Position numbers and translations under genes: made by a program. The notes below the pieces were generated by a model. It was not told the DNA's origin and searched no databases. It was given only the letters and a program-made list of their open reading frames with translations. A stretch of 64,000 bases of DNA from Pseudomonadota bacterium (GTDB lineage: Bacteria; Pseudomonadota; Gammaproteobacteria; Burkholderiales; Ferrovaceae). How positions within the stretch are numbered: position 1 is the first letter of the stretch; each line of letters starts with the position of its first letter. This document shows, one piece after another, positions 24,592-26,660 of the stretch. The stretch is taken from the NCBI GenBank assembly GCA_021796835.1, contig JAKABO010000007.1, forward strand, positions 1 to 64,000. The letters run 5' to 3'.

Positions 24592-24725
24592 AGAATCATT
24601 CTCCTTTGAATCTCTTGCAAAAAAATTTCGTCCCCCCCCAGGGTATTGGCATTGTAACCGCTAACCGGACGACGGATTGTTTCCGTTCGAACTATACTAT
24701 GATTCAGGATGGGTCCATGGTGTAA

Positions 24726-24785
24726 TGTAAATTTAGTTGACAAATACCCGCAAAAGGTTGATAAACGTCTTTAATTATATTTACA
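24726..24785 (+). promoter_or_regulatory. Promoter of the HTH-HATPase-STAS gene, framed by an inverted repeat
   Basis: A perfect TTGACA (24737-24742), 17-base spacer and GATAAA (24760-24765) form a good sigma-70 promoter. It is bracketed by TGTAAAT (24726-24732) and its exact inverse ATTTACA (24779-24785), 46 bases apart. The encoded protein has a DNA-binding domain, so self-control through these half-sites is plausible. The rest of the 223-bp spacer shared with the hybrid kinase holds no gene I can see. Confidence 0.55.
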
Positions 24786-24814
24786 AACAAACCACATAAG
24801 ATTGATAATCAGCC

Positions 24815-25819
24815 ATGAACCAGCAACAAATTACAGCCTTGAAACTGATTGCCGAAAGCGGCTACAACGTAGGCACACGCCTTGGCAACCTCCTGGGAAT
24901 CACAAGGCAGGCAGCCAGCGCCAGGCTAAAAAGGCTCCTAAAGGATGGCCTGGTTGAGGTCTCGGGTACCTCGCGTGCGCGCTTTTACCGCTTAAAGGTT
25001 GTAGGCCAGACTTCCGCAAGTTACCCCATTCTTGGACTCAACGAAGACTTGGTATGGCGCGGTCTATGCCTTCCATTTATCGCCGGTCTGCCGGAAAACC
25101 TCAAGAATATTTGGCACTACGGAATAACCGAAATGGTGAACAACGCCATAGACCATTCTGGGTCGAATGTGCTTACTGTCGGCATGGAGAGAACCGCTAT
25201 CTACACAACAGCCTGGGTATCAGATGACGGCGAAGGGATTTTTCTCAAAATTCAGAAGGCGTTGGGTTTATATGACCCTCGCGAGTCGATCTTGGAACTG
25301 GCCAAAGGAAAATTCACAACCGATCCAGCAAATCACTCCGGCGAAGGGATTTTTTTCTCCAGCAAGATGTTTGATATGTATGACATCCGGTCAGGGAATC
25401 TGCACTTCATGCACGATGACGGGTTGCGAGATGTGTTGACTGAGCGCGATTCCGAAAGCGCAGGGACTGTTGTGCTAATGCGGTTGAACAATGACAGCGC
25501 AAGAACCTCGAAGGAGGTGTTTGATCGATTTTCCAGCCCAGATGAATACACCTTTGACCGTACGATTGTGCCGGTACGTTTGGCAGCTTATGAGGGGGAA
25601 AATTTAGTATCCAGATCCCAGGCCAAACGGCTCACGATGCGATTTGAGCGATTCAGGCACGTGATACTGGATTTTGAAGAAGTACATGAAATTGGGCAGG
25701 CTTTTGCCGATGAAGTGTTTCGAGTATTCAGGAACGCACATCCGAGCACAGAAATGATTCCGAGAAATATGTCAAAAGCGGTTTCGGAAATGATTATGAG
25801 AGCCCAGTCCAAGGAATAG
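24815..25819 (+). CDS. Single-chain regulator: winged HTH, GHKL ATPase, STAS-like DUF4325
   Basis: 334 aa in three parts. Residues 1-64 are a winged helix (RLGNLLGITRQAASARLKRLL). Residues about 95-235 are a GHKL/HATPase fold with N box HYGITEMVNNAIDHS, G1 DDGEGI and G2 HSGEGIFF, like anti-sigma kinases of the SpoIIAB/RsbW kind but with no HisKA domain. Residues about 250-334 are the STAS-like DUF4325 domain with ILDFEEVHEIGQAFADE. Kinase and STAS partners, normally separate proteins in partner-switching systems, are thus fused to a DNA-binding head. The gene is clearly richer in A/T than its neighbours and stands 88 bases from tRNA-Met, which suggests acquisition by transfer. Target genes are unknown; no partner gene is adjacent. 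Confidence 0.85.
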   Translation: MNQQQITALKLIAESGYNVGTRLGNLLGITRQAASARLKRLLKDGLVEVSGTSRARFYRLKVVGQTSASYPILGLNEDLVWRGLCLPFIAGLPENLKNIWHYGITEMVNNAIDHSGSNVLTVGMERTAIYTTAWVSDDGEGIFLKIQKALGLYDPRESILELAKGKFTTDPANHSGEGIFFSSKMFDMYDIRSGNLHFMHDDGLRDVLTERDSESAGTVVLMRLNNDSARTSKEVFDRFSSPDEYTFDRTIVPVRLAAYEGENLVSRSQAKRLTMRFERFRHVILDFEEVHEIGQAFADEVFRVFRNAHPSTEMIPRNMSKAVSEMIMRAQSKE

Positions 25820-25907
25820 CGCCACAGAGTTCAATAGTATCGGCACCACCGCCTGATGGTCTCGGGCATAGAAGTCAGCTCGGTTAACGACCGTCGCCTA
25901 GATGTGA

Positions 25908-25984
25908 TGGTGGCGAATCAGGGATTCGAACCCCGGACCTTCGGATTATGATTCCGTCGCTCTAACCGGCTGAGCTAATTCGCC
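25908..25984 (-). tRNA. tRNA-Met (anticodon CAT)
   Basis: Cloverleaf of 77 nt including an encoded CCA. The acceptor stem GGCGAAT/ATTCGCC is perfect, the D arm has AGCTCAGCCGGTTAGAGC, the anticodon loop is A-T-CAT-A-A, and the T arm has GGGGTTCGAATCCC. The base pair 27-43 is A-A. CAT can be elongator Met or lysidine-modified Ile2; I cannot separate them by eye. The initiator type is unlikely because the acceptor 1-72 pair is G-C. Confidence 0.93.
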
Positions 25985-26090
25985 ACAAGCGGGGCATTCT
26001 AACCCTTGACCGGACTTTACTCAAGCCCCTGAGCCAATATTTTTGGTATGATGGCCCCTGTTGCCCCATAAAACCCCAAGGACAGACCCC

Positions 26091-26660
26091 ATGATCAACC
26101 GTTCTCTGGTGCGCCTCTGGTTCGTGTTGTTCGGTTTTTTCCCGCTGCTGGCCAGCGCAACTCCTCCCCAGGGAGAGGAAACCTTCGATCAGGACGCCAT
26201 CGTCAAGGATGCCAACCAGTTTTTTGGTCAAACCACGGAGGGATTGGCCAAACTGATCGAAAAGGCCTTTCGTGAGAAAGGGCGCCCCAATGGCTACATC
26301 AAGGGGGAAGAAGTCGCCGGCGCGATTGGAGTCGGACTGCGTTACGGGAGCGGCGACCTGATCATGAAGGAAGGAGCCGCGCGCAAGGTCTACTGGACCG
26401 GTCCGTCCGTTGGCTTTGACCTGGGCGGGGATGCCACCAAGGTATTCGTTCTGGTCTATCACCTCTCCTCCGCCAATGCCATCTTCCAGCGCTACCCAGG
26501 TGTCGACGGCAGCCTCTACTTTATCGGCGGCGCCGGCATCAACTACCAGCAACTGGGCGATGTCATCCTGGCTCCGATCCGGCTGGGCGTGGGTCTGCGT
26601 GAAGGCGCCAGCGTCGGTTACATGCATTACACCCCAGAAAAAACCTGGAACCCGTTCTGA
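26091..26660 (+). CDS. DUF1134 / EipA-type periplasmic protein
   Basis: 189 aa with a cleavable signal peptide ending LLASA. The mature protein carries the DUF1134 pattern: [46 protein letters not shown] and [10 protein letters not shown]. Brucella EipA, of the same family, is a periplasmic protein needed for envelope integrity. The ATG at 26091 has AAGGA eight bases upstream; the earlier ATG would add ten residues before the charged start of the signal peptide. Next to miaB but with its own upstream region. The family is clear; its role here is inferred. Confidence 0.85.

Follow-up and report, generated by a model that had tools for sequence, protein, structure and literature searches.

A solitary, apparently mobile wHTH–GHKL–STAS gene with a direct-repeat array at its own promoter: a probable self-regulating switch

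The window analysed here (the whole stretch of DNA, 64,000 nucleotides) carries an open reading frame whose 334-residue product joins a winged helix (wHTH), a GHKL domain and a STAS-like domain in one chain. Four direct repeats precede the gene, and a tRNA-Met gene lies beyond its 3′ end on the other strand. The features, in window coordinates, are the following.

24737–24744, plus strand: repeat 1, TTGACAAA; also a −35-like hexamer as read from the sequence
24758–24765, plus strand: repeat 2, TTGATAAA, 21 bp past repeat 1
24780–24787, plus strand: repeat 3, TTTACAAA, 22 bp past repeat 2; overlaps the ATTTACA of an earlier note on this DNA
24802–24809, plus strand: repeat 4, TTGATAAT, 22 bp past repeat 3; contains GATAAT
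24815–25819, plus strand: open reading frame of the wHTH–GHKL–STAS (DUF4325) protein, 334 amino acids, aligned with 34 relatives
24815–25000, plus strand: wHTH domain, residues 1–62, from Pfam and the predicted model
24998–25498, plus strand: GHKL domain, residues 62–228, from the predicted model and residue conservation
25550–25816, plus strand: STAS-like (DUF4325) domain, about residues 246–334, from Pfam and a separately predicted piece
25697–25699, plus strand: codon of Gln295, which aligns with the phospho-acceptor Ser/Thr of CapS/VapS (acceptor from PMC13373217)
25908–25984, minus strand: tRNA-Met(CAT), whose 3′ end is the right boundary of a variable segment with its left boundary at about 24684

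The gene is AT-rich, as the earlier note had remarked (G+C 0.493 against 0.595 for the window), and is the only DUF4325 gene detected in its own genome. The same note had read HTH, GHKL kinase-like and STAS-like parts in a single protein, and this architecture is right, since Pfam and structural matches agree on it. DUF4325 (PF14213) is found at residues 269–323 (E 2.5e-13, 49.9 bits against a gathering score of 23), whereas MarR_2/HTH_24 at residues 2–49 (MarR_2 25.7 bits, gathering score 27) and HATPase_c_2 at residues 90–194 stay below their Pfam cut-offs. The structure prediction that the note had suggested as a check gave a winged helix, a SpoIIAB-like GHKL domain and an RsbS/SpoIIAA-like C-terminal piece. 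In the full-length AlphaFold2 model, made from eight sequences (mean pLDDT 79.9, pTM 0.66), residues 62–227 superpose on SpoIIAB (Z 14.7, rmsd 2.9, 126 aligned) and the first 62 residues or so match winged-helix chains, MarR/ArsR included (Z about 8.4 to 9.4). The matches listed for the whole model were all to GHKL or wHTH chains, and the STAS piece was therefore predicted and searched alone; this moderate model (pLDDT 73.7) resembles RsbS (Z 8.2, rmsd 2.7, 82 aligned) and SpoIIAA (Z 7.7, rmsd 2.3, 80 aligned), nearly all the structural matches among those listed being STAS-bearing chains, and its best Foldseek E value is 0.013. Given the pTM of 0.66 and a GHKL–STAS linker with pLDDT below 50, the full-length model is silent on domain–domain contacts. 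The SpoIIAB-type ATP-binding motifs E..NN..H, DxGxG and GxG are present in all 35 family sequences, with E106, N109, N110, H114, D137, G139, G141, G176 and G178 identical throughout (the 35-sequence residue counts keep L006, a near duplicate of L005). Pfam and NCBIfam/PADLOC scans found no nuclease or other effector domain in the protein, the PADLOC and NCBIfam models giving weak matches only, and PHROG 3364, of unknown function, weakly matches the GHKL part.

The place of the phospho-acceptor, two residues before a conserved aromatic, was mapped by alignment to relatives with Ser there. In the family it holds Gln in 33 of 35 sequences, His in one and Pro in one, and Ser or Thr in none. Among stand-alone DUF4325 proteins, Ser or Thr occupies it in 10 of 13 (Gln in L100 and L101, Pro in L124), with Ser in L106 and L109, both of which adjoin a PIN gene. 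A kinase-side STAS domain is also absent, residue 1 of SpoIIAB aligning at model residue 62. These two absences make control of the protein by phosphorylation, which the earlier note had proposed, unlikely as far as its sequence tells. Elsewhere in the STAS part, T250 is conserved in 35/35 and position 266 is Ser or Thr in 35/35, and either residue could be another acceptor.

The relatives of the STAS part have neighbours of their own. Ten genes beside stand-alone DUF4325 genes were compared with Pfam: eight match a GHKL model (two over the cut-off) and two match STAS_2 (both below it), and by eye more of the ten resemble STAS–GHKL proteins. In addition, the GHKL profile of the present family matches the gene beside DUF4325 in L101, L114 and L116. 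Together with the PIN genes of two loci, such neighbours suggest that VapS-like proteins are probably among those with DUF4325. GHKL and DUF4325 are also fused in one chain, in this order, at L113:366–1565, L119:1447–2721 and L126:445–1716, with no detected HTH in the protein and no 21/22-bp array upstream; these are a second one-protein form of a VapK/VapS-like pair. In L103, L105, L108, L117 and L120, DUF4325 is followed by third genes of 147–219 amino acids with no Pfam family over the cut-off; the gene upstream of DUF4325 was checked in four of these five and matches a GHKL model in three, and such loci may be VapKSC-like operons with effectors other than PIN.

The gene appears to be solitary. 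In an all-against-all comparison of the neighbours at 36 loci, no neighbour family recurred in more than three, in agreement with the lack of a partner gene seen earlier in the window, and no shared neighbour gene could be a sigma factor. The sole widely common family was the gene itself, with 32 loci and four more (L007, L038, L040 and L043) in which the ORF picker had missed it. A histidine-kinase cluster lies directly upstream in three of the 36 loci (the window, L028 and L030); in congeners the same histidine kinase stands in that place with the gene absent, so this pairing is read as chance. Of 31 loci, 18 have their downstream neighbour on the other strand, and in 10 it follows in the same direction within 100 bp, a count that leaves out the four loci in which the ORF picker failed and the fragment L037. 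Pfam found no family in more than two of 84 neighbours. PADLOC models match at most 39 of these 84, a raw count obtained among housekeeping genes and probably far above the true one because several models match one protein.

The gene occurs in six of 61 near genomes, its own included, and in none of seven congeners (three of them only 73–86% complete). At the level of the order, matches at E 0.001 came from 38 of 399 genomes: 26 extend over about 300 residues or more (again with its own), two are fragments and the rest are weak or partial; in a sample of the phylum, 7 of 398 genomes match. A maximum-likelihood tree of 34 proteins places each of the four members from f1, the family of the window's host, beside a protein from another host, and the two members from genus g7 fall in two clades. 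Searches of viral contigs, plasmids and phages found no relatives there, one of them, by exact short peptide patterns, being suited to close relatives only. The gene tree disregards host families, and the solitary and mobile state of the gene is well supported by these sequence comparisons; we read it as a gene that passes from host to host as a single unit.

The tRNA-Met next to the gene, to which the earlier note had drawn attention, marks one edge of a variable interval. In congeners, the space between the sensor-kinase gene and tRNA-Met holds other contents. The right-hand match starts exactly at the tRNA 3′ end (25908) in G005, G006, G001 and G003, the four stretches that match past the tRNA at high identity; it starts at 25904 in G002, and little beyond the tRNA matches in G004 and G007. 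The left boundary falls at 24684 in G005 and G006, at 24686 in G003, whose flanks lie on two different contigs, and at 24627 in G001. As for the contents, G005 has a PIN gene and a Phd/YefM-like gene, and G006 has BrnT, a BrnA/CopG-type antitoxin and a Phd-like gene (Phd being just under the Pfam cut-off in both). The interval of G003 contains Phd and PIN, a TacA-like antitoxin with a GNAT gene, and a 49-base copy of the 3′ part of the tRNA, with an integrase fragment on its other contig; that of G001 holds 271 bp. The tRNA-Met-flanked interval (window 24684–25908; L061, L062, L064 and L065) is an insertion hotspot, with toxin–antitoxin genes in three of the seven congeners. Adjacency to a tRNA is not a rule for the gene, a tRNA lying within about 200 bp in only three of 33 other loci (L009, L022 and L036). 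In L009 and L022 gene and tRNA point their 3′ ends at each other, 25–34 bp apart, the orientation seen in the window at 88 bp.

Upstream of the gene, four direct repeats of TTKAYAAW start at 24737, 24758, 24780 and 24802, in steps of 21, 22 and 22 bp. The whole 64 kb contains seven matches to this pattern on the plus strand and two on the minus strand; four of the seven make up the array, which is the sole chain of the window. The layout is nearly that of L002, a relative with 69% identity, with repeats at −78, −57, −35 and −13 in the window and at −79, −58, −36 and −14 in L002. Repeats 3 and 4 coincide with the first and second hexamers of the only plus-strand sigma-70-like match in 24600–26100, a region with two such matches in all against 1.5 in shuffles. 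The earlier note had seen a promoter framed by TGTAAAT and ATTTACA. As an inverted operator these words are at chance level, two being present in the window, at 24726 (plus) and 24779 (minus), against 2.17 expected, and ATTTACA is part of repeat 3. Repeated sites at the gene's own promoter are retained from that proposal and the inverted frame is not, the signal being the array of direct repeats at 21–22 bp.

The array recurs among the relatives. The upstream regions of 34 loci, the window included, were compared, with start codons of the relatives picked by script; the set leaves out L026 (a duplicate of L008), L006 (the near duplicate of L005), the fragmentary or partial L037, L040 and L041, and L042, which gave no match, and counts the identical loci L003/L012 and L009/L014 once each. 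In a motif-free test, which scored a locus at a given lag if some stretch of 10 bases recurred there with 9 of 10 positions kept, peaks appeared at lag 21 (9 of 34 loci), 22 (16), 43 (4) and 44 (10). Dinucleotide shuffles gave means of 0.08 to 0.16 at these four lags and never more than two loci, and the next highest lag was 27, with two loci; the array of the window itself does not register at this strict setting. In a chain test with TTKACRWW (at most one mismatch, steps of 21 or 22), a pattern picked after the sequences had been viewed, chains of at least two repeats were found in 30 of 34 loci, at least three in 22 and at least four in 10, the window again included, against shuffle expectations of 0.69 loci for at least two and 0.01 for at least three. 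Chains were found in 0/30 far-upstream regions, 3/34 gene interiors and 6/34 reverse strands, while other step lengths gave chains in one to four loci (steps of 32/33 in 4/34). Copy number varies from two to five in the 30 loci, with TTKACAAT-like words. No chain is present in L038, L039 and L043, and L033 has only a different repeated word. In that locus the word is wholly changed (AATTTCCTAA) and the 21-bp lag is retained, as if operator and HTH had co-evolved. The arrays of L004 and L018–L021 are patterned, the outer repeats being TTTACRTTT and one inner repeat TTTACAATT, which might reflect unequal affinity along the row. In L022, L023, L024 and L034, the last repeat lies within the coding sequence, at +7 from the script-chosen start codon.

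Two comparisons link the array to the winged helix of this protein. In partial Mantel tests over the 30 loci with a chain, which can overstate significance, repeat distances correlate with HTH distances once the remainder of the chain is allowed for (partial r 0.43, permutation p 0.0002), as they do with those of the recognition helix alone (r 0.22, p 0.0006); with the HTH allowed for, they show no such correlation with the remainder of the chain (r −0.19, p 0.998). That the repeat sequence tracks the HTH rather than the remainder of the chain is well supported by this comparison. For comparison, no 21/22-bp chain was found upstream of 14 DUF4325-linked genes without a detected wHTH (0/14), as judged by the HTH profile of the family and, for 13 of them, also by Pfam.

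A sequence-only model of three repeats, built from 17 loci, was used to look for further arrays. In the gene's own genome it gave E 0.0013 for the own array, 0.11 for the first half of that array and 0.64 for the next place elsewhere. Across 30 gene-carrying genomes, each of the 19 scored matches with E below 0.01 sits immediately 5′ of the gene; six of these are outside the 17 training loci (G415, G414, G163, G318, G023 and G087), and the remaining 13 are partly so by construction. The best match elsewhere, among the scored candidates, had E 0.0116. With the threshold relaxed to E 1, the model recovered the own array in 22 of the 30 genomes, a match only elsewhere in two and none in six. The model is blunt and in 13 of the 30 genomes its scoring covered just 150 first-look candidates, so that short, two-repeat or single target sites could escape it. 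At this sensitivity, the defence or mobile genes that the earlier note had offered as targets lose ground, the model pointing to the gene's own promoter only and no neighbour being conserved. The link with defence is solely through the related two-chain systems CapKS and VapKSC (PMC13373217) and the toxin–antitoxin genes of congeners. Autoregulation of the gene by its own protein is what these sequence matches indicate.

Taken together, the locus is best read as a solitary, horizontally spread gene for a self-regulating DNA-binding protein that represses its own transcription through the repeats over its own promoter, a reading to which we give a probability of about 0.6. Its elements (the domains, the array, the reading of the array by this HTH, the lack of a detected second array, the solitary state and the mobility) are well supported by the sequence data, and the protein probably turns its own gene on and off with no need of a partner gene. 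Of the autonomous phosphorylation-controlled repressor imagined earlier, the solitary state and a sequence-indicated autoregulation hold, and the phosphorylation, with Gln at the acceptor place, is unlikely.

The mechanism that we favour for this probable self-regulating repressor is a cooperative, nucleotide-gated, head-to-tail binding along the repeats. The winged helix would read the row at one repeat per two helical turns, which would put all sites on one face of the DNA, and since the repeats all point the same way the subunits would be expected to line up head to tail. Docking would be between the STAS domain of each subunit and the GHKL domain of its neighbour, on the pattern of the SpoIIAA–SpoIIAB contact. 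The Gln at the phospho-site would hold STAS in its binding form, and the nucleotide of the GHKL domain or another ligand, instead of phosphorylation, would make or break the row. Once bound, the row would cover the promoter and repress transcription, its occupancy presumably blocking the sigma-70-like match under repeats 3 and 4. A more specific version is tentative and less likely than not: an ancestral phosphorylation switch would have become a phosphorylation-free, nucleotide-gated filament, templated by DNA through STAS-to-GHKL docking along the 22-bp repeats, that counts its own concentration at its own promoter and travels among bacteria as a single gene.

Other explanations have been considered. 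The gene might be a one-gene defence or abortive-infection factor, kept low by the array until infection or damage releases a burst of protein, itself harmful or phage-blocking. The solitary and mobile nature of the gene, the toxin–antitoxin genes held at the same spot by three of seven congeners, the defence models matched by some neighbours of relatives, and the protection that VapKSC gives against one phage (PMC13373217) all speak for it; but no nuclease or other effector domain was found in the protein, and the PADLOC matches are probably far fewer than the nominal 39 of 84 and lie among housekeeping genes, so that we regard this explanation as rather improbable. Still less probable is a one-chain equivalent of CapK/CapS, in which DNA damage would be followed by phosphorylation of STAS by GHKL, on the same chain or an adjacent one; this would break the DNA-bound oligomer and derepress the gene. 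The domains are of the same kinds as in CapK/CapS, which has been shown to work in this way (PMC13373217), the N-box Glu and Asn are identical in 35/35, and T250 and S266 are conserved Ser/Thr positions. However, the acceptor equivalent is Gln, His or Pro in every member, compared with Ser in L106 and L109, and the N-terminal STAS, half of the predicted ssDNA groove of CapK, is missing.

A third explanation, that some protein of the host binds the repeats, the gene being a bystander, is very unlikely. Bacterial hosts have many other HTH proteins, and the repeats are promoter-proximal; nevertheless, their sequence follows the HTH of this protein and not the rest of its chain, and they accompany the gene across many host families and do not precede the 14 relatives lacking a detected wHTH. 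Finally, it is hardly tenable that the repeats are overlapping sigma-70 promoters instead of operators (a pitch of 21–22 bp being a spacer of 17–18 bp). TTGACA-17-GATAAA in repeats 1–2, as read from the sequence, and TTTACA-18-GATAAT in repeats 3–4 do resemble −35/−10 pairs, but several relatives keep the same pitch with poor hexamers (TTTACGTTTA, TTGTCGA and, in L033, the changed word), promoter matches are at chance (2 against 1.5), and an overlap with a promoter is compatible with operator function.

Pairs of GHKL and STAS proteins are classical switches of sporulation and stress. Their control of immune operons and of a toxin was shown in 2026 (PMC13373217). The probably self-regulating gene described here places all parts of such a switch, together with a DNA reader, in one mobile gene with an operator array recognisable by eye. 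Its phospho-acceptor is missing and every checked ATP-binding residue is kept, which raises the question of whether a partner switch can run on nucleotide binding and DNA-templated assembly alone. An array at its own promoter only raises another, namely what a gene that seems to regulate mainly itself does for its host.

Among known systems, the closest is CapK/CapS, in which CapK (HTH–STAS–GHKL) is activated by ssDNA, whose predicted place is between the STAS and GHKL parts of CapK, and transfers phosphate to a conserved Ser of CapS (STAS–wHTH), so that immune operons are derepressed (PMC13373217, EMBO J 2026). GHKL, STAS and wHTH functions come together in both, as do promoter sites for self-control, demonstrated for CapS and probable here. 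In contrast with the two genes of CapK/CapS, the window protein is one chain in the order wHTH–GHKL–STAS. It lacks the kinase-side STAS of CapK, half of the predicted groove, so that activation by ssDNA in that way is not expected, and it has no Ser/Thr at the CapS acceptor place (Q 33, H 1, P 1 of 35). The CapS sites are TTAA palindromes, whereas the window gene has direct repeats; and an immune operon lies downstream of CapK/CapS in 348 of 443 cases (PMC13373217), whereas the window gene has tRNA-Met downstream on the other strand. Another example is VapKSC, composed of a STAS–GHKL protein, a STAS antitoxin and a PIN toxin (PMC13373217). The DUF4325 genes adjoining PIN in L106 and L109 resemble VapS as described there, but the window gene has neither PIN toxin nor separate genes, carries an N-terminal wHTH and lacks the acceptor Ser/Thr. 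In the open-licence literature no paper on the fused wHTH–GHKL–STAS architecture was found, the only relevant one being PMC13373217, in whose main text the words fusion, single polypeptide, direct repeat, tandem and glutamine are absent.

The pairs SpoIIAB/SpoIIAA and RsbW/RsbV share the predicted folds of both domains, but the window protein is fused to a wHTH, has Gln in place of the expected acceptor Ser and no sigma-factor candidate among shared neighbours. As to the DNA-bound form, BldC builds head-to-tail wHTH multimers on direct repeats, with one 9-bp site per subunit (PMC5859096), and RdfS is a precedent for a wHTH multimer built head to tail (PMC11963761). The window gene is like BldC in its direct repeats of variable number and in the head-to-tail binding that they imply; on the other hand, BldC multimerises through its wHTH at 9 bp per subunit, whereas the array here has a pitch of 21–22 bp and the protein two extra domains. 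By its sequence, then, the protein resembles the CapK/CapS and VapKSC switches but departs from them in its acceptor and its gene order.
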